From NCBI GenBank assembly GCA_000473305.1, contig CP006772.1:1736001-1800000 (forward strand): a stretch of 64,000 nucleotides of DNA, in the 5' to 3' direction. A program made the translations under genes and the position numbers. Each line of letters begins with the position of its first letter. Position 1 is the first letter of the stretch. This stretch comes from Bacteroidales bacterium CF. GTDB taxonomy: Bacteria > Bacteroidota > Bacteroidia > Bacteroidales > UBA932. Below the pieces are notes generated by a model, which was given only the letters and a program-made list of their open reading frames with translations, was not told where the DNA came from and ran no database searches. Below, piece by piece: positions 22,816 to 63,496 of the stretch.

Positions 22816-22826
22816 TTGAATTTATA

Positions 22827-22857
22827 TTTGTGTGACAGGAAAAAGTTCGTACCTTTG
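22827..22857 (+). promoter_or_regulatory. Bacteroidetes-type promoter for rloA-rloB
   Basis: TTTG at 22827-22830 and TACCTTTG at 22850-22857, separated by 19 bases, match the -33/-7 consensus TTTG-N17-23-TAnnTTTG. The ATG I choose for the ATPase is 22 bases after the -7 box. Confidence 0.7.
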
Positions 22858-22878
22858 TATTCCAAAAAGTTTAAAACA

Positions 22879-24168
22879 ATGATTCAAGAGATCAAAATAC
22901 AGAACTTCCTCTCTTTTAAAGATGAGGCAACCTTTAGTTTTGAAGCCACAAAGGATTCATTTGCTGAAGAATATCAGGTAGTAGAGGTGGAAAAGGGTGT
23001 GCGTCTATTAAGATTGGCTGTGGTCTATGGAGCAAATGCCTCAGGCAAATCAAATCTTTTAAGTGCTTTTGATTTTCTTCATAGTTTTCTTTTTAAGAAA
23101 AATAGTGACTTGGACGAACCTACCATGGTGACTCCATTCAAGCTTGATGTTGAGAGACCAAATCAACCTTCAAGGTTTGAGTTAGTCTTCTATGTCGGTT
23201 CAGTAAAGTATTGTTATCAACTTGTGTTGGATAGTAAGCAGGTATATCTTGAAAAATTGTCAGTGTATCATACTATCCGGCCTACTATGCTTTTTTGCAG
23301 GGAATTAGAGAATAATCAATCGGTTATTACTTTTAATCCAAATGTTGTAATGGTGAGTCAAGTAATAAAAGAGAAAATATCTGCTGAATGTTTGATAAAT
23401 ATGTCTTTTTTTGCAGCAAGAGATAAGGTTAATGTTAGTATTCCTGAGATAGATGAAGCAAAAGAGTGGCTTAAAAATCAGATTATGCAGATGATAGGAC
23501 CGGGTACCCGGATGTTTACATATGCAGAAAATAAAATAGCTTCTGATGATAAACTAAAAGCCTACTTGTTGTCGGTAGCCAATAATGCTGATTTTAACAT
23601 TTCAGATATTAGTACTCAAATGATTAAGGAAAATATACCTCAAGATTTATTGAAAGTGATTCTTGGAAGTGATACTATTTCAGAGCAAGACAAAGATAGG
23701 CTCAGAAAGGAGCATTCCTTGTCAAAACCGAAAACTGATTTCATTCATTCGGTAAATAACGAAAGAGGGAGAGAACAGTATAGTATGACATCTGAATCTC
23801 AGTCAAGGGGTACCAGAAGGATATTTGGACTGGAGGCAGTTTTGTATGAGGTTTTTAGTCGTAATGGATTTCTAACAATCGATGAAATTGAGACTTCATT
23901 ACATCCTGATTTAGTGGAATTTTTTATTGCAAGTTTCTTAAAACAGAAGAGTCGTTCTCAAATGATAGTTACTACTCACTATGATCCTCTGTTGGAAACA
24001 ATAGGTGATTTATTGCGAAAGGATTCGGTATGGTTCACCGAGAAAAAGGAATCTGGACATACGGAATTGTATTCGCTGGTTGAGTTTTCCGGACTAAACC
24101 GCTTGTCTTCCATCAGAAAGGCATATAGAAATGGAAATTTTGGTGCGCTTCCCAAAGTAAAAGAATAA
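22879..24168 (+). CDS. RloA-like AAA ATPase (OLD/AAA15 family), abortive-infection type
   Basis: From ATG 22879 the protein is 429 residues; an upstream in-frame TTG would start inside the promoter. IKIQNFLSFKDEATFSFE is the typical opening of RecF/OLD-like ATPases, with Walker A GANASGKS at 51-58. Late motifs are the signature region QSRGTRRIFG and Walker B FLTIDEIETSLHPDL, then MIVTTHYDPLL. With the RloB-like gene four bases downstream it forms an RloA/RloB (AbiL-like) pair. Such pairs are associated with phage defence, the ATPase being the sensor. Function here is inferred. Confidence 0.85.
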   Translation: MIQEIKIQNFLSFKDEATFSFEATKDSFAEEYQVVEVEKGVRLLRLAVVYGANASGKSNLLSAFDFLHSFLFKKNSDLDEPTMVTPFKLDVERPNQPSRFELVFYVGSVKYCYQLVLDSKQVYLEKLSVYHTIRPTMLFCRELENNQSVITFNPNVVMVSQVIKEKISAECLINMSFFAARDKVNVSIPEIDEAKEWLKNQIMQMIGPGTRMFTYAENKIASDDKLKAYLLSVANNADFNISDISTQMIKENIPQDLLKVILGSDTISEQDKDRLRKEHSLSKPKTDFIHSVNNERGREQYSMTSESQSRGTRRIFGLEAVLYEVFSRNGFLTIDEIETSLHPDLVEFFIASFLKQKSRSQMIVTTHYDPLLETIGDLLRKDSVWFTEKKESGHTELYSLVEFSGLNRLSSIRKAYRNGNFGALPKVKE

Positions 24169-24172
24169 GGCT

Positions 24173-24742
24173 ATGTCACGTAATAGTGGTAATCGTAAAC
24201 AGATTGAGGCGATTCCTACGGTAATAGGTGCCGGAATAACTGAACAGTATTATTTTCAACATATATCACACTGTACTGAGTTCATTTTCCGAATTCGCCC
24301 ACGTTTTTTTGGAACGGAATCCATATATGAGTTAGCCAAGAAAATTGACAAAGTAATATCTGACAGAGGCGTTGCCATTTGTGTTTTTGACGCAGATGTA
24401 GCTCGTAATAGTGATGCAGAGAGAGCTAAATTTGAGAGATTCTGTAAAAAATATTCTAATAAGAAAAATGTGATTCTTTGTGATAGCTTACCCTCTATAG
24501 AATATTGGTTTTTATTGCATTTCTGCAAAACAAATAAGTACTACAAAGATGCAGACACAGTACAAAGAATGCTTCGTAAGTTTATTCCTTTGTACGAAAA
24601 AAAAGAAGATTTTTTGAAAACCGAAAAATGGGTAGCTGATATGTGTAGTGATGGGAAACTGGGAAAAGCGATAGCCAACGCAAAACAGTTTGGCACTACA
24701 GGCGAATCTTATTCATTGATATATAGGGCATTTGAGAAATAG
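24173..24742 (+). CDS. RloB-like protein (Toprim-type nuclease candidate)
   Basis: The 189-residue protein fits the RloB family: PTVIGAGITEQYYFQHIS (family form xVEGxTEqxYF, with the acidic residue in ITEQ), VAICVFDADVARNS with the D-x-D pair, and PSIEYWFLLHF. RloB proteins share features with Toprim nucleases and are paired with RloA ATPases in abortive-infection-like systems. The start is four bases after the rloA stop. A heptamer tract, then REP-A copy 3, lie downstream. Confidence 0.85.
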   Translation: MSRNSGNRKQIEAIPTVIGAGITEQYYFQHISHCTEFIFRIRPRFFGTESIYELAKKIDKVISDRGVAICVFDADVARNSDAERAKFERFCKKYSNKKNVILCDSLPSIEYWFLLHFCKTNKYYKDADTVQRMLRKFIPLYEKKEDFLKTEKWVADMCSDGKLGKAIANAKQFGTTGESYSLIYRAFEK

Positions 24743-24756
24743 TAAAATTCTCTTAA

Positions 24757-24815
24757 CTTTTAACTCCTCACTTTTCACTTTTTCACTCTTCACTTTTTCA
24801 CTTTTCACTCTTAAA
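24757..24815 (+). repeat. Heptamer-like TTCACTTT tract
   Basis: Repeated CTCACTTTTCACTTTTTCAC words following the rloB-like gene and preceding REP-A copy 3. The order (tract then repeat) is the reverse of that at the other sites. Confidence 0.7.
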
Positions 24816-24885: not shown

Positions 24886-24954
24886 TCGACAACTACACAA
24901 ATAGAATTACGCCAACTACACAAATATAATCTCGCCAACTACACAAGTGGGCGA
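24886..24954 (+). repeat. Three 23-bp direct repeats upstream of ATPase gene A1
   Basis: Units start at 24886, 24909 and 24932, each 23 bases, sharing CGMCAACTACACAA. The third ends just before the -7 box TATCTTTG. The spacing is the same as before genes A2 and A3, though the sequence differs. They look like operator or iteron-type binding sites for a gene-specific regulator. Confidence 0.9.
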
Positions 24955-24961
24955 AAATTAT

Positions 24962-24969
24962 GTATCTTT
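24962..24969 (+). promoter_or_regulatory. Putative -7 box (TATCTTTG) for ATPase A1
   Basis: TATCTTTG fits TAnnTTTG and lies eight bases after the third 23-bp repeat and 28 bases before the start codon. The -33 position would fall inside that third repeat, so a bound factor could block or aid the polymerase. Confidence 0.6.
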
Positions 24970-24997
24970 GCATTACGATTTTTTAAAGTTGTAAACG

Positions 24998-26260
24998 ATG
25001 GCAAAAAAATACCTTTCAAGGATTTGTGATTCACTTTTGTTAAGACAGTTGGCTTCTTCAGGTGCTGTATTGATTGATGGTGCTAAATGGTGCGGCAAAA
25101 CGAGTACTGCTCGCCAAGTGGCGAAAAGTGTGCTTTATATGCAAGATACAGACCGCAGTCAGGGTTATCTGAAGATGGCAGATACAATGCCGTCACGTCT
25201 GCTTCTCGGTGACAATCCTCGTTTGTTGGATGAATGGCAGATGGCACCGGTTCTTTGGGATACCGTTAGATTTGAGGTCGATAAACGCAGCGAAAGGGGT
25301 TTGTTTATTCTCACAGGCTCGTCAGTTCCTAAAGATGGCGTAACGGCTCATACCGGTACCGGTCGGATTTCGCGTCTGTTGATGCGGCCAATGAGTCTTT
25401 TTGAGTCGGAGGAGTCAAACGGCAGCGTTTCTCTTGAGCGACTGTTTGCCGGTGATGCTGATGTTGTGGGTGAAAGTAAGTTGACAGTACCTGATTTAGC
25501 TCAGATAATATGTCGCGGGGGATGGCCCGAAGCTGTAGTGAATGGCGATAGTGATTCCTTAGTAGCACGTAATTATGTGGATGCCGTCATTAATATGGAT
25601 GTGCAGCGTGTGGACGATGTAGAAAGAAACCCTGCAAGAGTACGGCAGTTCCTTCGGTCGTATGCTCGTAATATTTCTACAATGGCTCCGCTTACCACCG
25701 TATTAGCCGATGTAAAATCAAATGATACAGTCTTTTCGGACACAACCTTGTATAGTTATGTGAATGCGTTGCGTCGTATTTTTCTGATTGAAGATATTCC
25801 GGCCTGGAAACCATCGTTGAGGTCGAAAACAGCCATCCGCACTTCAGATAAACGGCAGTTTGTGGATCCGTCTATTGCTACGGCATTAATGCATGTCAAT
25901 GTTGACAGTCTTCTTGATGACATGACATATTTTGGTTTTTTGTTTGAATCATTGGCTGCGCGCGATTTACGTATTTATGCGCAGGCTCTCGATGGCGATA
26001 TTTTCCACTATCACGATAAAAGTGATTTGGAAGCCGATCTTGTAATCCGTCTTCATGATGGTCGTTGGGCACCTGTGGAAGTTAAATTGGGAAGTAGTGA
26101 GATAGAGGAAGGTGCAGCACATCTGATAAAACTACAGAAAAAAATAGATACAGAAAAGGTGGGGCAACCCTCTTTTAAAATGGTGCTGACGGGTGGTCAA
26201 TTCGCTTATAAGCGTAATGATGGTGTGTTGGTAGTACCGATAGGGTGCCTAAAACCATAG
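24998..26260 (+). CDS. AAA_14/DUF4143 ATPase, subfamily A, copy A1
   Basis: The 420-residue protein has Walker A GAKWCGKT at 28-35, Walker B-like RLLDEWQ (Asp78, Glu79) and a sensor LTGSSVPKDG. A winged-helix-like middle follows, then a C-terminal DUF4143 domain whose DLEADLVIRLHDG plus PVEVKLG pattern is that of the PD-(D/E)XK nuclease fold (D...E-x-K). The biological role of this family is not established. The gene stands alone with its own repeats and promoter and ends in REP-A copy 4. It is paralogous to the genes at 27750 and 30147. Confidence 0.88.
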   Translation: MAKKYLSRICDSLLLRQLASSGAVLIDGAKWCGKTSTARQVAKSVLYMQDTDRSQGYLKMADTMPSRLLLGDNPRLLDEWQMAPVLWDTVRFEVDKRSERGLFILTGSSVPKDGVTAHTGTGRISRLLMRPMSLFESEESNGSVSLERLFAGDADVVGESKLTVPDLAQIICRGGWPEAVVNGDSDSLVARNYVDAVINMDVQRVDDVERNPARVRQFLRSYARNISTMAPLTTVLADVKSNDTVFSDTTLYSYVNALRRIFLIEDIPAWKPSLRSKTAIRTSDKRQFVDPSIATALMHVNVDSLLDDMTYFGFLFESLAARDLRIYAQALDGDIFHYHDKSDLEADLVIRLHDGRWAPVEVKLGSSEIEEGAAHLIKLQKKIDTEKVGQPSFKMVLTGGQFAYKRNDGVLVVPIGCLKP

Positions 26261-26282
26261 ACCTTGCCAAGGTTTTTCGCAT
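26260..26282 (+). repeat. REP-A copy 4
   Basis: CCTTGCCAAGGTTTTTCGCA beginning at the last base of the A1 stop codon. Its last two bases (AT) are also the start of the direct repeat that precedes gene B1, so the repeat and the next regulatory region abut directly. Confidence 0.9.
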
Positions 26283-26338
26283 GGTCATAACCCTAAATTT
26301 CCAAAATAATATACTATCTTTATGGTCATAACCCTAAA
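26281..26338 (+). repeat. Two 17-bp direct repeats flanking the promoter of ATPase gene B1
   Basis: ATGGTCATAACCCTAAA occurs at 26281-26297 and 26322-26338, 41 bases apart. A -7-like TATCTTTA at 26315-26322 lies between them, so the second copy covers the likely transcription start. This is a plausible operator pair. The spacing differs from the 23-bp rule of the A-type genes. Confidence 0.88.
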
Positions 26339-26349
26339 ACAAGCTAAAA

Positions 26350-27561
26350 ATGATACGTCGAGAGAGTTATTTGAATTTGCTGAGAGATTTTATTGACAAA
26401 CCTTTTATAAAGGTTATTACAGGTCTGAGGAGATGCGGGAAATCTGTCTTGTTGATGATGTTGAGGGATGAACTTATCAACAAAGGAATTGATGAGAACA
26501 ATATTATTTATTTGAATTTTGAGAGTTTCGAATTCTCTGAAATTGATGATTCTAATAAGCTTTACCTTTTCCTGCGTTCAAAAATGTCCAATAAAAAGCA
26601 ATACTATATCTTGCTTGACGAAATTCAGGAGGTTAAGTCTTGGGAAAAATCAATCAATTCATTGCGGGTAGATTTTAATGCAGATATATATTTAACCGGA
26701 TCTAACTCCAAGCTATTGTCTTCTGAACTGGCAACTTATCTTGCCGGCAGATATGTAGAAATACCTGTCTACACTTTGTCTTTTGCAGAGTACCTTCTTT
26801 TCCGGCATGAATATGCTCCCGGCGAAACAGAGGAGATCTACGCTGAATTTGAGAATTTTTTACGTAAAGGTGGTTTTCCGGCCATCCACACAGGTAATTA
26901 TTCATCAGAAACGACTTACAAAGCAATTTACGATATCTATTCGTCTGCTATTTTGCGTGACACAGTTCAACGCTATGGCATTCGCGATGTAGAGCTTCTG
27001 GAACGAGTTGTAAAATATGTATTTGATAATATTGGCAATTCTTTTTCAGCTAAGAATGTTGCCGACTATTTCAAAAGCCAGAATCGCAAAATCGATCTGA
27101 ACACTGTATACAATTATTTGAACGCTCTGGAAGGTGCATTCATAATTTATAGGATTCCCCGATATGATATTAAGGGTAAAGAGCTCTTGAAAACCAACGA
27201 AAAATACTTTGTTGGCGATCAGTCTTTGCTTTACGCTGTAATGGGCTTTAAAGACAGGCTTATTTCAGGCGTACTTGAAAACATAGTAATGCTTGATCTC
27301 AAACGCAGAGGGTTTAAAGTATTTGTTGGCAAATCAGGCGAAAAAGAGATTGATTTTATTGGAGAAAAAGCCGGATATAAAATTTATGTGCAAGTAACAT
27401 ATAAAATGACAGAGCAATCTACTATCGACAGAGAGTTCTCGCCTTTGCTGGACATTAAGGATAACCATCCGAAATACGTTGTAAGCATGGATGAAACATG
27501 GAAGGATAATATTGAGGGTATTCAACACATGCACATAGCAGATTTTTTACTGAAGGATTGA
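26350..27561 (+). CDS. AAA_14/DUF4143 ATPase, subfamily B, copy B1
   Basis: The 403-residue protein has Walker A GLRRCGKS at 25-32 and Walker B YYILLDEIQEVKSWE (Asp90, Glu91). YLTGSNSKLLSSELATYLAG, the sensor block typical of this common branch, is followed by FAEYL. The C-terminal DUF4143 part ends GEKEIDFIGEKAGYKIYVQV, where the nuclease-type E-x-K is changed (QVTYK), so nuclease activity is doubtful. It differs clearly from the A subfamily. Stop and REP-A copy 5 are 20 bases apart. Role unknown. Confidence 0.88.
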   Translation: MIRRESYLNLLRDFIDKPFIKVITGLRRCGKSVLLMMLRDELINKGIDENNIIYLNFESFEFSEIDDSNKLYLFLRSKMSNKKQYYILLDEIQEVKSWEKSINSLRVDFNADIYLTGSNSKLLSSELATYLAGRYVEIPVYTLSFAEYLLFRHEYAPGETEEIYAEFENFLRKGGFPAIHTGNYSSETTYKAIYDIYSSAILRDTVQRYGIRDVELLERVVKYVFDNIGNSFSAKNVADYFKSQNRKIDLNTVYNYLNALEGAFIIYRIPRYDIKGKELLKTNEKYFVGDQSLLYAVMGFKDRLISGVLENIVMLDLKRRGFKVFVGKSGEKEIDFIGEKAGYKIYVQVTYKMTEQSTIDREFSPLLDIKDNHPKYVVSMDETWKDNIEGIQHMHIADFLLKD

Positions 27562-27581
27562 GTCACTTTGGCGCAACGCAG

Positions 27582-27604
27582 GACCTTGCCAAAGTTTTTT
27601 GCAA
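27582..27604 (+). repeat. REP-A copy 5
   Basis: CCTTGCCAAAGTTTTTTGCA, 20 bases after the B1 stop, followed by a TTCACTTTCCACTCC tract to about 27655. The preceding GGCGCAACGCAG resembles the GGTGCAACGCAT before copy 3, so the conserved unit extends upstream too in these copies. Confidence 0.9.
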
Positions 27605-27663
27605 CTGCTTCACATTCTTCACTTTCCACTCCTCACTTTCCACTCCTCACTCTCTAGTTTCAG

Positions 27664-27700
27664 CCAACTTTGGAAACATATTTCATCCAACTCTGGAAAC
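27664..27700 (+). repeat. Two 23-bp-spaced direct repeats upstream of ATPase gene A2
   Basis: CCAACTTTGGAAAC at 27664-27677 and CCAACTCTGGAAAC at 27687-27700 start exactly 23 bases apart. They lie 50-86 bases before the A2 start. The sequence differs from that before A1 and A3, but the period is the same. Confidence 0.82.
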
Positions 27701-27749
27701 GAACCATTATTTTATTACTTTTACATCAGATTTTCAAATGTGATTTCTT

Positions 27750-29024
27750 ATGGATAATTACAAAAAACGCGTAGTTGACAACTTGCTTGAAAGAAAGTTA
27801 AAAGGCAAGGGCGCGGTACTGATACAAGGTGCTAAATGGTGTGGCAAAACCACCACTGCCGAGCAAAAGGCTAAAAGCATATTGTATATGGACGATCCTC
27901 AAAAGAAGGCTCAAAACCTGCAGATGGCTGAATTCAATATGCAACGGCTGTTGCAAGGAGATGCTCCGCGGTTGATAGATGAATGGCAGCTTGCTCCTCA
28001 AATATGGGATGCTGTGAGATTTGAAGTTGATCACAGAGATGCGATGGGTCAGTTTATTCTTACAGGTTCTGCTGTTCCTGCCGACAAACAAAAAATAAGT
28101 CATAGCGGTACAGGCCGTTTTGCATGGCTCACCATGCGTCCTATGTCATTGTATGAGAGCGGCGATTCTACTGGAGGAGTCAGCATCGGTCAGTTGTTTG
28201 ATTCTGATAAGACAGTTGATGGCTATTGTAAACTGGAACTTGCCGACATTGCATTTCTTATTTGTCGCGGAGGGTGGCCTCGTGCTGTTTCTTTGGATAA
28301 AGATATAGCATTAGATCAGGCAAAGGATTATGTGGATGCTATAACTGATTCCGATATTTCTCGCGTCGATGATGTCAATCGTGACAAGGAGTCGGCACGC
28401 AGGCTTATGCGCTCGTATGCCCGGCATCAAGGTTCGCAAGCCACCATTGGAACAATACGTGAAGATATGACTGCAGGCGGGGCTTTTGAAATAAGTGAAC
28501 GTACAATTACTTCATACATAAATGCTTTAAAACAAATATTTGTCATTGAAGATATGCCCTCGTGGAATCCGAATCTGAGGTCAAAGACGGCTATCAGAAC
28601 TTCGGATACTCGCTATTTTGTCGATCCTTCCATCGCCACGGCTGCTCTGGGTATTGGCCCTGAAGATTTAATGAACGATCTGAATATGATGGGGCTGCTG
28701 TTTGAGACTATGTGTGTGCGCGATTTGAGAGTTTTTGCAGATGCTTTGGACGGCGATGTTTATCATTATCGCGATAAAAACGGGCTTGAATGTGACGCGG
28801 TGATTCATCTACGTAATGGAAAATACGGATTGATTGAAATCAAGCTCGGAGGCGAGACACTGATAAATGAAGGAGTAAAAACTTTGACTTCATTTGCCTC
28901 AAAAATTGATACCGGAGCGATGAAGGAACCTTCATTCAGAATGATACTTACGGCCACAGGAAATTTCGCATATCGGCGTGACGATGGAATTCTAATTGTT
29001 CCATTAGGTTGTCTTAACGCATAA
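27750..29024 (+). CDS. AAA_14/DUF4143 ATPase, subfamily A, copy A2
   Basis: The 424-residue paralogue of A1 has Walker A GAKWCGKT at 27-34, RLIDEWQLAPQIWDAVRFEV, LTGSAVPADK, and the nuclease-like GLECDAVIHLRNG with GLIEIKLGG near the C-terminus. The strings NLRSKTAIRTSDTRYFVDPS and RRDDGILIVPLGCL are shared almost unchanged with A1. It sits between the two B-type genes. A degenerate REP-A begins at its stop. Role unknown. Confidence 0.88.
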   Translation: MDNYKKRVVDNLLERKLKGKGAVLIQGAKWCGKTTTAEQKAKSILYMDDPQKKAQNLQMAEFNMQRLLQGDAPRLIDEWQLAPQIWDAVRFEVDHRDAMGQFILTGSAVPADKQKISHSGTGRFAWLTMRPMSLYESGDSTGGVSIGQLFDSDKTVDGYCKLELADIAFLICRGGWPRAVSLDKDIALDQAKDYVDAITDSDISRVDDVNRDKESARRLMRSYARHQGSQATIGTIREDMTAGGAFEISERTITSYINALKQIFVIEDMPSWNPNLRSKTAIRTSDTRYFVDPSIATAALGIGPEDLMNDLNMMGLLFETMCVRDLRVFADALDGDVYHYRDKNGLECDAVIHLRNGKYGLIEIKLGGETLINEGVKTLTSFASKIDTGAMKEPSFRMILTATGNFAYRRDDGILIVPLGCLNA

Positions 29025-29037
29025 CCTTGGCAAAACA
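29023..29037 (+). repeat. Degenerate REP-A copy (6)
   Basis: AACCTTGGCAAAAC overlaps the A2 stop codon at the place where the other cassettes carry REP-A. It keeps only the first half of the core and lacks the T-run, so it seems a decayed copy. Confidence 0.5.
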
Positions 29038-29091
29038 TCCATAATAATTTGGTGGCGGATGAAAAAATAGTTATTTTCACAAAGTAAATGT

Positions 29092-29958
29092 GTGTATATA
29101 CACAAATATATTCCTCATAATCAAGGTATAGATCAAAAACATATCATTGAGATTCAGTTGGATAGTTTTGCTGACCGCAAATATCGTAAAGCAAAGGTGC
29201 TTTACGATTTTGTGGAGAAGAAGGCCTTGTCTGACCCGGAGATGTTTTATGTTTTGCTCGATGAGGTGCAGATGTTGGAGGATTTTGTGGATGTGCTGAA
29301 TGGCTTTTTGCATTTTCAGAATTTAGATATCTATGTAACAGGTAGTAATGCTAAGTTTTTATCATCGGACATCATTACCGAATTTAGGGGGCGTGGAGTA
29401 CAAATCCACTTAGTGCCTTTGTTATTCAAGGAGATAGTAACAGAGATGAATGTTGAGCCAAGTATGGCATGGCGTGACTACATGTTCTATGGTGGCATTC
29501 CGATGGTGGTGATGGAAAAGGATGAACGGCTTAAAGTGGAGATGCTTCATCAGTTAGTTCATGAGACCTATTTGACTGATATTATCAATAGGAACAGAGT
29601 AAAGAATGATGCGGACTTGGAGGAACTCTTTAAGTTGTTGGCTTCTACTATTGGCAGTTTGACAAATCCCACTAAATTGTCTAATACTTTTAAGAGTGAG
29701 AAAAAGGTTGACATCAATTCCTGGACTATTAAAAATTATATCGATTATTTCATAGATTCTTTTTTGCTGTCACGTGCCATCAGATACGATATCAAGGGGA
29801 AAAGGTATATTGACACACCTTGCAAGTATTATTTCTCTGATATGGGGCTGCGTAATGCTTTGCTGGATTTCAGAGAGGTGGAACCGACTCATCTCATGGA
29901 GAATATTCTGTATAACTACTTGCTGGAACAGGGATATGGAGTTGATGAATGTATTTGA
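29092..29958 (+). pseudogene. Truncated AAA_14/DUF4143 ATPase, subfamily B (B2)
   Basis: The 288-residue frame matches the middle of B-type ATPases: YVLLDEVQMLEDFVDVLNGF (Walker B), IYVTGSNAKFLSSDIITEF, FYGGIPMVVMEKDE and YYFSDMGLRNALLDFREVEP. It lacks the first about 50 residues with Walker A and stops at EQGYGVDECI, before the C-terminal nuclease-like part. The real remnant therefore has both ends missing. No direct-repeat operator is visible upstream, unlike its intact neighbours. It should be non-functional. Confidence 0.8.
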
Positions 29959-29994
29959 TTATCTGCTACGGTAATCATTGAGTCCCGAACGCCT

Positions 29995-30014
29995 GACCTT
30001 GCCAAGGTTTTTCG
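29995..30014 (+). repeat. REP-A copy 7
   Basis: CCTTGCCAAGGTTTTTCG, 37 bases after the end of the truncated B2 gene and directly before the 23-bp repeat array of A3. It has no heptamer tract after it, like copies 3 and 4, which also lead straight into an operator. Confidence 0.88.
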
Positions 30015-30021
30015 TGAGATA

Positions 30022-30110
30022 TTTTCGCACAACAGTCTATCTGAATTTTGCGCAACAGATTGTCTTGTTTTTGCACAACAAATTATCTGATTTTTGCACA
30101 ATAATACAAT
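30022..30110 (+). repeat. Four 23-bp-spaced direct repeats upstream of ATPase gene A3
   Basis: Units carrying TTTTSGCRCAACA-type cores start their GCACAACA word at 30027, 30050, 30073 and 30096, exactly 23 bases apart each time. The first three also share a following TCTATCTGA/TTATCTGA-like part. The last unit runs up to the -7 box. Confidence 0.9.
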
Positions 30111-30116
30111 ATATAT

Positions 30117-30124
30117 TATCTTTA
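30117..30124 (+). promoter_or_regulatory. Putative -7 box (TATCTTTA) for ATPase A3
   Basis: TATCTTTA lies 13 bases after the last GCACAATA repeat word and 22 bases before the ATG. It is one base off TAnnTTTG, as is the box before B1. Its place relative to the repeats is similar to that for A1. Confidence 0.55.
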
Positions 30125-30146: not shown

Positions 30147-31400
30147 ATGAAGTACATTAGAAGATTGATAGAAGATGATATGTTGGAAAAGCTCGCAGCC
30201 TCAGGCGCTTTACTAATAAAAGGACCAAAATCTTGTGGAAAGACAGAGACTGCCAAGCAATATGCTAAAAGTATATTGCAAATAGACAGGGATCCACAAG
30301 TTCCTGTGATTATGGCTACAAATCCACAACTGTTACTGGTAGGTCAAACTCCCAGACTGATTGATGAATGGCAGGAGCAGCCTCAAATTTGGAATTATGT
30401 AAGACATGAGGTCGATGACCGCAAGTTAAAAGGACAATTTATCCTTACGGGCTCTTCAAATCCAACTGATGATGTAAAATTGCACAGCGGCTCAGGACGT
30501 TTTACAGTATTGCAAATGGACACCATGAGCTGGCAGGAATTGGGATATTCCTCAGGAACAGTCAAATTATCGGACTTGGTGGCCGGGCATTTGAAAGAGT
30601 TTAATGAACCGGCTATATCGCTTGACTTCATCATAGAAAGAATGTGTATAGGTGGTTGGCCCTCTTTAATAGGCGAAAGCACAAAAAATGCTCTTAATAT
30701 GAATCGCAGCTATGTTGATTTACTTTGTGAAGTGGACATGAGCAATGTTTCGGGAGTGAGACGCGACCCTCACAAAGTGCGTAGTTTGTTACGCTCTTTG
30801 GCAAGGAATATAGCTACTTTAGTGGATAATACAACCTTGGAAAAGGATGTGAAATCCAGAGATATTAATGAATTGTCAAGAAACACGATATCTGACTATT
30901 TGAATGCACTTTCCAGATTAATGATTTTGTATGAACAACCTGCTTTTAATATGCATATTCGCTCATCTGCATCGTTGCGTAAGTCACCTAAGAGACATTT
31001 GTGCGACACGTCTCTGGCTGTGGCAGCCTTGGGTTTAGACAAAGAATCGTTAACAAAAGATATTAAATATGCCGGGTTCTTGTTTGAGTCACTTGCAATT
31101 CACGAATTGAATGTGTATGCCAAAGCTAATGATGCTAGTGTGTTTCACTACAATGACTATTATGGTAATGAAGTGGATGCTATTGTACAAGGGCGAAATG
31201 GAAATTATGCCGCTTTTGAAATTAAACTGGGCGTGGGTTTTATTGATGAGGCAGCGGATAATCTCAAAAAATTTGCTAAAAACATTGATACTGCAAAAAT
31301 GGAGTTGCCTAAAAGTCTTAACATCATCACCGGAACCGGCATGAGCTATCGCCGTCCCGATGGTTTAAATGTTATTTCTTTAGCCTCTTTGGGGCGCTGA
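30147..31400 (+). CDS. AAA_14/DUF4143 ATPase, subfamily A, copy A3
   Basis: The 417-residue paralogue of A1 and A2 has Walker A GPKSCGKT at 26-33, RLIDEWQEQPQIWNYVRHEV, LTGSSNPTDD, and a C-terminal GNEVDAIVQGRNG plus AAFEIKLGVG with the PD-(D/E)XK-like D...E-x-K. It is more diverged than A1 is from A2 (for example HIRSSASLRKSPKRHLCDTS in place of NLRSKTAIRTSD). It carries its own four-unit repeat array and ends six bases before REP-A copy 8. Confidence 0.88.
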   Translation: MKYIRRLIEDDMLEKLAASGALLIKGPKSCGKTETAKQYAKSILQIDRDPQVPVIMATNPQLLLVGQTPRLIDEWQEQPQIWNYVRHEVDDRKLKGQFILTGSSNPTDDVKLHSGSGRFTVLQMDTMSWQELGYSSGTVKLSDLVAGHLKEFNEPAISLDFIIERMCIGGWPSLIGESTKNALNMNRSYVDLLCEVDMSNVSGVRRDPHKVRSLLRSLARNIATLVDNTTLEKDVKSRDINELSRNTISDYLNALSRLMILYEQPAFNMHIRSSASLRKSPKRHLCDTSLAVAALGLDKESLTKDIKYAGFLFESLAIHELNVYAKANDASVFHYNDYYGNEVDAIVQGRNGNYAAFEIKLGVGFIDEAADNLKKFAKNIDTAKMELPKSLNIITGTGMSYRRPDGLNVISLASLGR

Positions 31401-32780: not shown

Positions 32781-34019
32781 ATGGGAGGGGATGTGATGAG
32801 AGATTTTTCTTCTTTAATATCAGCTGCCGAAAAGGCTATTTCGGCAGCTAAAACTCAAAATTCGACGGGTGTGGCTGATGCGACGGGTGCTCCTGATGTG
32901 TCGAGTGCGGCTGATGCGACGGGTGCTCCTGATGTGTCGAGTGCGGCTGATGCAACGAGTGTGACGGATGCTGCTGATGTGTCGAGTGCGACGGATGTGT
33001 CGGCTGGTCCGGTGGTAGGTGGAACTCTACTAAAACGAACGCAGATTAACCTCAAACGTGATCAGATTGGGTTTTTCCATGTGTGGATCAGAGGGAGCAA
33101 TCGGAACAATGTTTTTTACAACAATGCTGATTTTATTGGTTTTCTTGAGCGATGCCATAAGTCTGCAATTAAAAATGAGACCATTGTCTCCGCGTTTGTC
33201 TTAATGGACAATCATGTTCATTTACAAATATATACTCGTGCACTTAACGCATTTATGAAATCATTATTAATGAGCTTTAATCAATGGTACAACTGGCGTA
33301 AAGGGCTTAGCGGACAACTTTTCAACAGTCCGTTCTCCAGCAAACTTATTGACAATGAGGATTATCTTCTGTATAATTATTTATACATTCTTACAAATCC
33401 CGTTAGGGCCGGAATTTGTAAAAACATAACAAAATATAAGTGGAGTTCTTATCATTTTACAAAGAAAGAAAAATTCAACTTTTTAAATAAATACATTAAT
33501 GTCAGCGATTTGGTTTTTAATAACTTTTTCAAAAGTAATATTGAATTGCATTATACAGCAAACAAGCATTTAAGAGAATATTGGTCGCTTTTAGATGATA
33601 AAAAAACAATAGAAACTAACACAAAAGCGATAGCAGATTATAAAAGAGCTAACGATGATAAAAAAACATTAGAAAGGGAAAAAGAATCAATTAAAGGATT
33701 AGAAACAATAGAATCAGACAATAAAACAAGGGCAAATAATAATAATAATAATAATAATAGAGAAAAGCGCAGTTATTTATCCAGGCAAACGAATCATTTA
33801 GTCAGGCCGACAGATCATGAGGTGGCTACAAGTCTCAGTTTTTTATTGAAAGAGCGAAAATTAAATGAGCTGTCTCACAAAGAGTTAATCAGGGTTATGA
33901 AAATTCTGAGGGATCATGGGAATGCGACTTATCGTCAGATTTCCTCTGTTACCCATGAAAGTTTGTATGAAGTGATTAGGGACCTTGCCACAGTTTTTTG
34001 TATTTACCTGATATATTAG
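32781..34019 (+). CDS. REP-associated tyrosine transposase (RAYT, Y1/HUH type)
   Basis: The 412-residue protein carries a Y1-type HUH domain from about 85: INLKRDQIGFFHVWIRGSNR, FVLMDNHVHLQIYTR with the metal-binding His145-x-His147, and MSFNQWYNWRKGLSGQLFNS, where Tyr170 or a neighbour is the likely nucleophile. ILTNPVRAGICKN and YKWSSYHF complete the RAYT pattern. A 12-residue repeat (ATGAPDVSSAAD) stretches the N-terminus, and an (AAT)8 run encodes eight Asn near 319-326. The C-terminal part looks like a helix-turn-helix, and the last residues IRDLATVFCIYLIY are encoded by a REP copy. RAYTs are thought to spread REP/REPIN sequences. Confidence 0.85.
   Translation: MGGDVMRDFSSLISAAEKAISAAKTQNSTGVADATGAPDVSSAADATGAPDVSSAADATSVTDAADVSSATDVSAGPVVGGTLLKRTQINLKRDQIGFFHVWIRGSNRNNVFYNNADFIGFLERCHKSAIKNETIVSAFVLMDNHVHLQIYTRALNAFMKSLLMSFNQWYNWRKGLSGQLFNSPFSSKLIDNEDYLLYNYLYILTNPVRAGICKNITKYKWSSYHFTKKEKFNFLNKYINVSDLVFNNFFKSNIELHYTANKHLREYWSLLDDKKTIETNTKAIADYKRANDDKKTLEREKESIKGLETIESDNKTRANNNNNNNNREKRSYLSRQTNHLVRPTDHEVATSLSFLLKERKLNELSHKELIRVMKILRDHGNATYRQISSVTHESLYEVIRDLATVFCIYLIY
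32880..32951 (+). repeat. Two perfect 36-bp tandem repeats in the RAYT N-terminal region
   Basis: GCGACGGGTGCTCCTGATGT begins a 36-bp unit at 32880 that is repeated exactly at 32916. A partial, diverged third unit follows. It encodes Ala/Asp/Ser-rich sequence outside the catalytic domain. Confidence 0.9.
33735..33758 (+). repeat. (AAT)8 trinucleotide run within the RAYT gene
   Basis: Eight AAT codons encode a poly-Asn linker between the HUH domain and the C-terminal helices. Length changes would stay in frame. Confidence 0.9.
33981..34000 (+). repeat. RAYT-type REP at the 3' end of the RAYT gene (R11)
   Basis: CCTTGCCACAGTTTTTTG lies inside the last codons of the RAYT gene. Inverted partners follow at 34111 and 34184, so the gene is framed by inverted doublets on both sides. 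Confidence 0.9.
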
Positions 34020-63121: not shown

Positions 63122-63495
63122 AGTTTAAAGTTATTAGTTAACAGTTAAAAGTTAAGAGTGAAAAGTGAAAATTTAAGAGTTAAAAGTGAAGTGTTAAGAG
63201 TTAAAAGTTAAGAGTGAAGAGTTAAGAGTGAAGAGTTAATAGTTAAGAGTTAATAGTTAAGAGTTAATAGTGAAGAGTTAAGAGTGAAGAGTTAATAGTG
63301 AAGAGTTAATAGTGAAGAGTTAAGAGTGAAGAGTGAAAAGTTTTCGTTTTTCACTTTCTCACTTATCACTTATCACTTTCTCTCTTATCACTTTCTCACT
63401 TATCACTTATCACTTTCTCTCTTATCACTTTCTCACTTATCACTTATCACTTTCTCACTATTCACTTATCAATTTTTCACTTATCACTTATCACT
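63122..63495. repeat. Long heptanucleotide tract forming an inverted repeat between two MFS paralogues
   Basis: 63130-63341 is built from AGAGTTA and AGAGTGA heptamers. From 63345 the pattern reverses to TCACTTATCACTT and TCACTTTCTC words until 63495. The two halves are roughly complementary, so a large cruciform is possible. No gene is supported within it; any open frame there is an artefact of the repeat. Confidence 0.9.
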
Positions 63496-63496
63496 T

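Follow-up and report, generated by a model that had tools for sequence, protein, structure and literature searches.

A 23-bp direct-repeat array upstream of DUF4143-type ATPase-nuclease genes and its probable recognition by the encoded proteins

MalT and other STAND regulators are nucleoside-triphosphatases that act on direct-repeat arrays near promoters, and iteron-binding initiators use an array of direct repeats of about 22 base pairs (bp) upstream of the binder's own gene. In this study, we analyzed a 64,000-nucleotide stretch of the genome of Bacteroidales bacterium CF (contig CP006772.1, positions 1,736,001 to 1,800,000; hereafter the window), in which three related ATPase genes, A1, A2, and A3 (A-type genes), are each preceded by direct repeats with a period of 23 bp. 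The A-type genes resemble MalT and its relatives in combining a nucleoside-triphosphatase with a direct-repeat array near the promoter, and the iteron initiators in having an array of nearly the same period upstream of the gene of the probable binder.

The nearest regulatory parallel that we found is RptR, which, in the available part of its description, represses its own defence promoter via three direct repeats, two of which lie over the -10 box (PMC12255303). A1, A3, and the sister-type gene B1, the three window proteins that were scanned, match the PADLOC models of PDC-S01 (E values of 2e-64, 8.5e-60, and 9.7e-158, respectively), a single-gene phage-defence candidate composed of AAA_14 and DUF4143. 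In the available parts of the two relevant reports, PDC-S01 is an ATPase domain fused to a domain of the PD-(D/E)XK superfamily and ranks fourth in frequency among prokaryotic defences, with 39,480 copies detected, 9986 archaeal and 29,494 bacterial (PMC12988326), and no other individual locus is as frequent in rumen genomes (PMC13356809). Judged by sequence, the window genes are members of DUF4143/PDC-S01, and their role in phage defence is a database assignment only; the A-type ATPase-nucleases belong to a family that is very common in bacteria and archaea and is an unvalidated defence candidate. Our results suggest that an A-type gene is probably a self-contained autoregulated unit, whose protein would bind its own array, read the variable core of the repeats, and most likely repress the gene.

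The 23-bp array and its distribution among homologues

A1 (24998..26260, 420 amino acids), A2 (27750..29024, 424 amino acids), and A3 (30147..31400, 417 amino acids) encode AAA_14/DUF4143 proteins; these genes, B1, B2, and the arrays, operators, and promoter elements described here lie on the forward strand. The A1 array (24887..24955) consists of three 23-bp units starting at 24887, 24910, and 24933 in the family register, and its repeat, CAACTACACAA, occurs three times with zero mismatch; 11 of 11 columns were identical in the three copies (best of 2000 shuffles, 7). The A2 array (27662..27707) has two units (27662 and 27685), in which CCAACTYTGGAAAC occurs twice with 13 of 14 columns identical (best of 2000 shuffles, 12). 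The A3 array (30018..30109) follows four 23-bp steps (30018, 30041, 30064, and 30087); three of its copies agree in 9 of 11 columns (best of 2000 shuffles, 7), and the fourth copy is partial. The A3 register was our choice, placed by its AA at unit positions 14-15, and A3 lies outside the genes in which the unit model described below found two units. A sequence-only reading had placed nine repeat starts at a constant step, and all nine proved correct, every step being exactly 23 bp. Its description of each set as conserved held, whereas its view of the three sets as different from each other needs one correction: in the family register, A1 and A2 share CAACT at positions 4-8 (first A1 unit and both A2 units included) and AA at 14-15.

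To this set we added the best 80 of 584 relatives detected by scanning named genomes for homologues, as well as further loci from the genus, family, and phylum of the window, together with four viral contigs. A total of 226 of 268 open reading frames (ORFs) were kept as A-type (at least 300 bits, at least 390 amino acids, best match not B1); 225 were unique, and 222 had at least 120 bp of upstream DNA. Lags of 15 to 59 bp were compared, and a repeat was called at a score of at least 12. The best upstream lag was 23 bp in 192 of the 222 genes, 46 bp in 11, and another value in 4, so that lags of 23 or 46 bp together accounted for 203. Shuffled upstream regions gave lag 23 with a score of 12 in 0 of 1110 cases, the shuffling here and in the tests of the window arrays having moved dinucleotide blocks with dinucleotide counts not all kept exactly. 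The sequence-only reading had proposed this periodicity as a check and its absence as a refutation; the period is present in the homologues.

The repeat was found in 73 of 78 named loci from 12 named phyla, including archaea: Bacteroidota (24 of 25), Bacillota (22 of 24), Spirochaetota (8 of 8), Actinomycetota (5 of 6), Pseudomonadota (4 of 4), Fibrobacterota (2 of 2), Thermoplasmatota (2 of 2), Methanobacteriota (1 of 2), Nitrososphaerota (1 of 1), and others (4 of 4). The phylum labels were read from the titles of the records, of which many are metagenome bins. In the family of the window, 95 of 249 genomes carried an A-type gene (E 1e-40), with up to six copies per genome.

The 23-bp array was restricted to the A-type gene family. 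Among the other ORFs of the named loci, lag 23 was seen in 11 of 278; eight of these are divergent neighbours sharing the upstream DNA of an A gene, another (L034) is a fragment of a disrupted A gene, and the remaining two (L027 and L059) reach an array lying beyond the 220 bp examined upstream of the A gene. One further non-A ORF (L033) showed lag 46 in GC-rich DNA. A generic three-unit pattern gave four matches in 99 genomes, compared with 0 for the reversed pattern, and all four lay 52-86 bp upstream of A-type matches; a control pattern with 22-bp spacing gave nine stretches, at nine loci without an A or B relative. With one mismatch allowed, no second A1 array was found in the Bacteroidales bacterium CF genome, which held the three own sites and five scattered single sites (5.7 expected by base composition; reversed-pattern control, 0), and no A2 array was found beyond its own two sites (control, 1). 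A regulon for A1 or A2 elsewhere in the genome was rejected on this one-mismatch search.

Iterative fixed-phase alignment over 330 bp of upstream DNA gave a unit model whose positions 1-7 read C-G-C-C-A-A-a, followed by a variable core (8-13), A (14), A or G (15), T or C (16), and an A-rich spacer. Two or more units were present by this model in 182 of the 222 genes and fewer than two in 40; three was the commonest number (94 of 222), with up to 12 in the 330 bp scanned. Identity at positions 9-13 was 79-94% within a gene and 25-40% between genes, and none of 48 pairs of paralogues in one genome had a common core. Selection for distinct addresses among paralogues was unsupported, since the difference between cores within a genome (0.631) did not exceed that between genomes at comparable divergence (0.641).

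Co-variation of the repeat core with two protein positions

Co-variation was analyzed in 147 of the 182 genes, which were at least 12% different; a base was treated as undefined when the units of a gene agreed on it by less than 60%. With overall distance removed, the distance between cores tracked that of protein windows in 236-260 (partial r of 0.18-0.20; window mean 0.00, standard deviation 0.065), and the top windows for spacer positions 18-23 (0.13) fell outside 236-260. The residue at position 249 went with particular bases in the non-redundant genes. D249 was accompanied by CCG at bases 11-13 in 27 of 40 genes, K249 by G12 in 31 of 32, E249 by CGG or CCA in 14 of 16, and P249 by A13 in 14 of 14. 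N249 was accompanied by C13 in 19 of 25 genes, and C13 occurred in 2 of the 122 others. A second association linked K341 to GCC at positions 2-4 (72 of 81 genes; other residues, 2 of 66).

Phylogenetically independent pairs were then compared, the contact regions having been left out when the tree was built. N249 with C13 gave 7.6 pairs for, 0 against, and 4.4 with no difference, of 12 (median p 0.008), and K341 with GCC gave 7.5, 0, and 2.5, respectively, of 10 (median p 0.008). For D249 with CG at 12-13, the values were 6.5, 0.1, and 2.4 of 9 (median p 0.03), and for K249 with G12, 5.3, 0, and 0.7 of 6 (median p 0.06). A scan of 7876 residue-base pairs with within-clade shuffling ranked 341-base 3 (z of 8.8) and 249-base 13 (8.7) at the top, followed by 249-base 12 (7.8) and 342-base 7 (7.3). 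When relatives of less than 40% divergence were excluded, residue 249 alone predicted bases 12-13 in 72 of 136 genes and was the best of 420 columns; the next column reached 42, the nearest allowed relative 25, and the baseline 7. With training on 105 genes from the searches of the window's own phylum and testing on other phyla, residue 249 again led all columns for bases 12 and 13 taken together (21 of 45, compared with 17 for the next column and a median of 9).

In A1, the codon of residue 249 (25742..25744) encodes T and that of residue 341 (26018..26020) encodes K. The A1 core at bases 11-13 is ACA, and T249 genes number four, too few for judging. The A2 core, GGA, accompanies R249 and resembles that of most K249 genes, which the cores of the other two R249 genes do not. 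A3 has N at 249 and, in the inferred register, CAC or CGC at bases 11-13.

The Pfam scores for AAA_14 and DUF4143 were 39.9 and 105.9 bits for A1, 57.9 and 118.2 for A2, 43.4 and 116.1 for A3, and 120.3 and 63.5 for B1 (curated cut-offs of 27 for AAA_14, PF13173, and 28.1 for DUF4143, PF13635). An AlphaFold2 model built on a 109-sequence alignment had a predicted local distance difference test score of 95.4 and a predicted template modelling score of 0.93. Between the ATPase and the DUF4143 (PD-(D/E)XK-like) domain of A1, predicted helices 212-224, 232-240, and 248-260 follow each other in the order of a winged helix. Residue 249, the second of helix 248-260 and the position of the strongest co-variation with bases 12-13, stands where the predicted recognition helix begins. 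Predicted strands 333-340 and 345-352 enclose residues 341-342, with 341 six residues before D347. We take E317, D347, E361, and K363 to be the PD-(D/E)XK motif and DUF4143 to have that fold, an assignment backed by PMC12988326 and by Foldseek matches to Card1 and Cdn1.

Foldseek found no full-length solved relative, the best match being 2qen, an archaeal Walker ATPase, with a TM-score of 0.43 by query length, and sequence searches of solved structures returned nothing significant. Further Foldseek matches were ORC/Cdc6, RuvB, NLRs, Avs5, RFC/clamp loaders, a DnaA-type initiator, and the maltose-regulation chain 8bob_C. A STAND-type fold would fit the matches to 2qen, NLRs, and Avs5, yet ORC, RFC, and RuvB were matched as well.

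The sequence-only reading had proposed a binding protein whose recognition changes with its gene under fixed geometry, and had named the ATPase or its winged-helix region as the candidate; lag 23 is kept in the homologues and the core co-varies with a residue of the predicted winged helix, so that its interpretation is supported. Because the putative DNA-reading residues co-vary with the repeats of their own gene, each A-type protein most likely reads and controls that gene.

Promoter geometry, proposed mechanism, and alternatives

The -7 consensus of Bacteroidota is TAnnTTTG. In the window, the A1 array is followed by a -7 element, TATCTTTG (24963..24970), and the A2 and A3 arrays by -7-like elements, TACTTTTA (27716..27723) and TATCTTTA (30117..30124), respectively. 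Counted from position 1 of the last unit, they lie at 30 bp in A1, 31 bp in A2, and, in the register chosen for it, 30 bp in A3. Among the 85 non-redundant genes that carry a Bacteroidota -7 box, the distance from the box to the last unit fell into two phases modulo 23, 50 genes at 6-9 and 28 at 19-22, with 7 elsewhere. The two phases are about 11-12 bp, or one helical turn, apart. Distances of 31 and 54 bp, and of 21 and 43 bp, are each about 23 bp apart and therefore represent two phase classes, not four. The distance from the array to the start codon showed little phasing. The last unit overlapped the core promoter in 36 of the 85 genes, and 5 of 74 named loci had a TTGACA starting 1 bp ahead of the last unit.

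Since the array lies across the core promoter, or just upstream of and in phase with it, its occupancy most likely represses. The protein, with its AAA+ ATPase, winged helix, and PD-(D/E)XK-like domain, would bind the array cooperatively, each 23-bp unit taking up one protomer or one dimer, and contacts between neighbouring protomers would set the fixed step. The recognition helix of the winged helix would read the variable core, where residue 249 would face bases 12-13. The first half-site would be read by a hairpin of the nuclease fold beside the conserved D347, with residue 341 facing bases 2-4. Repression by the bound array would last until a signal or a falling protein level frees the promoter.

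Several results weigh against self-recognition and repression as the full account. No repeat with a score of at least 12 was found in 15 of the 222 genes, although 23 was still the best, weaker lag in 8 of these, and one B-like ORF (L095) had a best lag of 23 with a score of 18. Only four independent pairs each were available for D versus K at 249 (3.8 for, 0 against, 0.2 no difference) and for P (3.0, 0, and 1.0), and an association of Y337 with A4 was unsupported by such pairs (1.2, 0, and 2.8 of 4), coming from few lineages. Residue-base pairs outside the proposed interface also scored in the scan and are unexplained (A61, 7.0; T278, 6.8; G114, 6.6). With relatives excluded, residue 341 did not rank with the best columns for bases 2-3; in the cross-phylum test, residue 249 reached 27 for base 12 alone, compared with 30 for the best column, and was outside the top five for base 13 alone. 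The two Walker motifs (A and B) and the E-D-ExK set were essentially invariant in 182 proteins (E317 in 181, D347 in 182, E361 in 181, and K363 in 182), a conservation showing that the protein does more than autoregulate. Finally, the -7 box stood at least 42 bp from the last unit in 49 of the 85 genes (15 at 42-44, 29 at 52-55, and 5 others); the read bases then end upstream of -33, a placement that also suits an activator.

The array may accordingly be considered as an activator platform. The STAND regulator MalT forms ATP-bound oligomers that recruit RNA polymerase from direct repeats, and ATP-bound A-type oligomers could do the same in positive autoregulation or as a switch. Along with the distant placement in the 49 genes, the match to 8bob_C, which we take to be MalT, points in this direction. 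Against it, many promoters have both core elements (60 occurrences of TTG at 21-24 bp upstream of TAnnTTTG in 112 genes), the 36 genes mentioned above have a last unit that overlaps the core promoter, and the predicted B1 operator described below starts at the end of a -7-like box. We regard activation as an unlikely alternative; the promoter geometry leans towards repression and leaves room for activation.

Under another explanation, the array would be what the nuclease acts on, as substrate or address: DNA bearing the protein's own repeats would be cut or marked, and the upstream copies would serve as an immunity, self-targeting, or storage site. The motif residues E317, D347, E361, and K363, kept in 181-182 of 182 proteins, and the position of the co-varying residue 341 close before D347 would suit such a role. 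However, 203 of the 222 genes have an intact array next to them, and outside A-type loci similar arrays were few, in viral contigs. This explanation, which the sequence-only reading had offered beside autoregulation, seems decidedly doubtful, and autoregulation is favoured on the basis of promoter overlap and phase.

An iteron-like replication origin, at which a Rep-like initiator would bind direct repeats of 22-23 bp in front of the initiator gene, is very improbable. Direct repeats of about two helical turns upstream of an AAA+/winged-helix gene, the ORC/Cdc6 and DnaA-type initiator matches, and the occurrence of some copies on plasmids would agree with it; a relative of A2 (E 1e-40) was found in only 8 of 72,556 plasmid records, and genomes hold up to six copies. 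Iteron replication was disfavoured on account of these few plasmid copies. Transposons with repeated end sites exist and the distribution across phyla is scattered, but the array as the end repeats of a transposon or other mobile element is scarcely credible, since no clear copy of the own unit occurred within 300 bp downstream in 109 genes (matches of 12-13 of 16 bases in 7 genes, compared with 2 in the coding control), and arrays at both ends were not found. An array transcribed as a guide RNA was disfavoured for the window genes because their -7 boxes lie downstream of the arrays.

Sister genes, viral arrays, and comparison with known systems

B1 (26350..27561, 403 amino acids) belongs to a sister AAA_14/DUF4143 subfamily and matched PDC-S01 model PDLC04787; the model matched by A1 and A3 was PDLC04790. 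Its predicted operator pair, ATGGTCATAACCCTAAA, lies at 26281 and 26322 (span 26281..26338; lag 41) and flanks a -7-like element at 26315-26322, one copy being over the expected -33 position and the other overlapping the end of the -7-like box by a single base. The best lag upstream of B1 and its homologues was 39-42 in 12 of 29, with no repeat in 13 and another lag in 4; for the gene at 333100 of the same genome and its homologues it was 32-34 in 24 of 30. Private repeats with a spacing typical of the subfamily thus seem to extend beyond the A type, and a sharp single spacing was seen only in the A type among the three subfamilies compared. B2 (29092..29958, 288 amino acids) is an AAA_14/DUF4143 B-type remnant that lacks an N-terminal part including the Walker A motif, and its upstream DNA showed no clear repeat pair (best score 7-8). 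Two other DUF4143 genes of the genome have other upstream repeats, with lags of 31 and 40 at 2573772 (L002) and an inverted repeat, ATGTTC...GAACAT, read by eye at 2127881 (L006).

Directly before A1, an AAA_21 ATPase gene and a RloB-like gene (22816-24742) match PADLOC AbiLi (E 2e-75) and AbiLii (1e-14) and are probably an AbiL-type defence pair. The sequence ACCTTGCCAAGGTTTTT, with 0-1 mismatch, occurs seven times on the forward strand (20785, 21995, 24865, 26261, 27583, 29996, and 31408), where shuffling expects none; the five copies by A and B genes are intergenic, resembling a terminator-like repeated element. Simple repeats of a TCACTTT/AGTGAAA-like heptamer lie at 24756-24812, 27608-27652, 63122-63496, and other places in the window, and 18/36-bp repeats (32863-32997) lie within the repetitive N-terminus of an ORF without Pfam match (32781-34019).

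In viral contigs, three GCCAA-AA units at 23 bp were found in six stretches, one belonging to an A gene and one lying within an ORF. The other four (three sequences: L332 and L334 alike, L333, and L336) had no DUF4143 match in the record. These orphan arrays (L333, 1797-1900; L336, 96-154; L332, 2639-2689) are possible decoys or targets, although a weak lead: the L333 array overlaps a 124-amino-acid ORF, and the L332 array scores low on the unit model. L333 also carries two copies of TCGACYATAACCGA about 39 bp apart, somewhat like a B-type operator, and no other viral contig yielded this pair. With a relaxed pattern there were 29 viral stretches, 23 of them inside ORFs; one array (L345) lies at a contig end, and its gene may be off the contig. 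The 24-bp viral control, with at least 120 stretches, is an unfair one because a multiple of three favours in-frame coding repeats, and it gives the orphan-array idea no support either. Several viral ORFs of about 270-320 amino acids (L341, L349, L357, L360, and others) have 23-bp CCCAAA-type repeats in their coding sequence, which are perhaps origin iterons within an initiator gene. It is conceivable, if quite unlikely, that a large part of the PDC-S01 family consists of sequence-addressed ATPase-nucleases whose address diversifies by a residue-to-base code; the array would then be both autoregulator and sensor, and foreign arrays would titrate the protein off its promoter, either with higher expression as an alarm or to the benefit of the phage as a decoy.

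Compared with MalT and other STAND regulators, the A-type proteins differ in having a PD-(D/E)XK-like C-terminal domain with its motif intact and, for A1 and A2, no second array in their own genome. Unlike the iteron initiators, they combine AAA+ and nuclease-fold domains with an array phased to the promoter, and few plasmid copies were found. PDC-S01 as described in the available parts of PMC12988326 has no mention of repeats, a DNA-binding site, or regulation, whereas an array is seen here; the terms "direct repeat", "autoregulat", "operator", and "winged" are absent from its main text, and no tested mechanism is given in those parts. Repeats are likewise unmentioned for PDC-S01 in the available part of PMC13356809, and our search, mostly outside subscription literature and partly of incomplete texts, found no published account of 23-bp arrays at DUF4143/PDC-S01 genes.

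The array offers a molecular handle on the A-type branch, pointing to the DNA that is probably bound, the residues that would read it, and the likely control of the gene. It also helps the promoter annotation of A-type genes, and it provides natural data from which the protein-DNA recognition code of an ATPase-nuclease could be derived. RptR, in the available part of its description, is a dedicated homodimeric repressor of 9-bp repeats with a 6-bp palindrome (PMC12255303), whereas the likely reader of an A-type array is the ATPase-nuclease itself, on 23-bp units with gene-specific cores.

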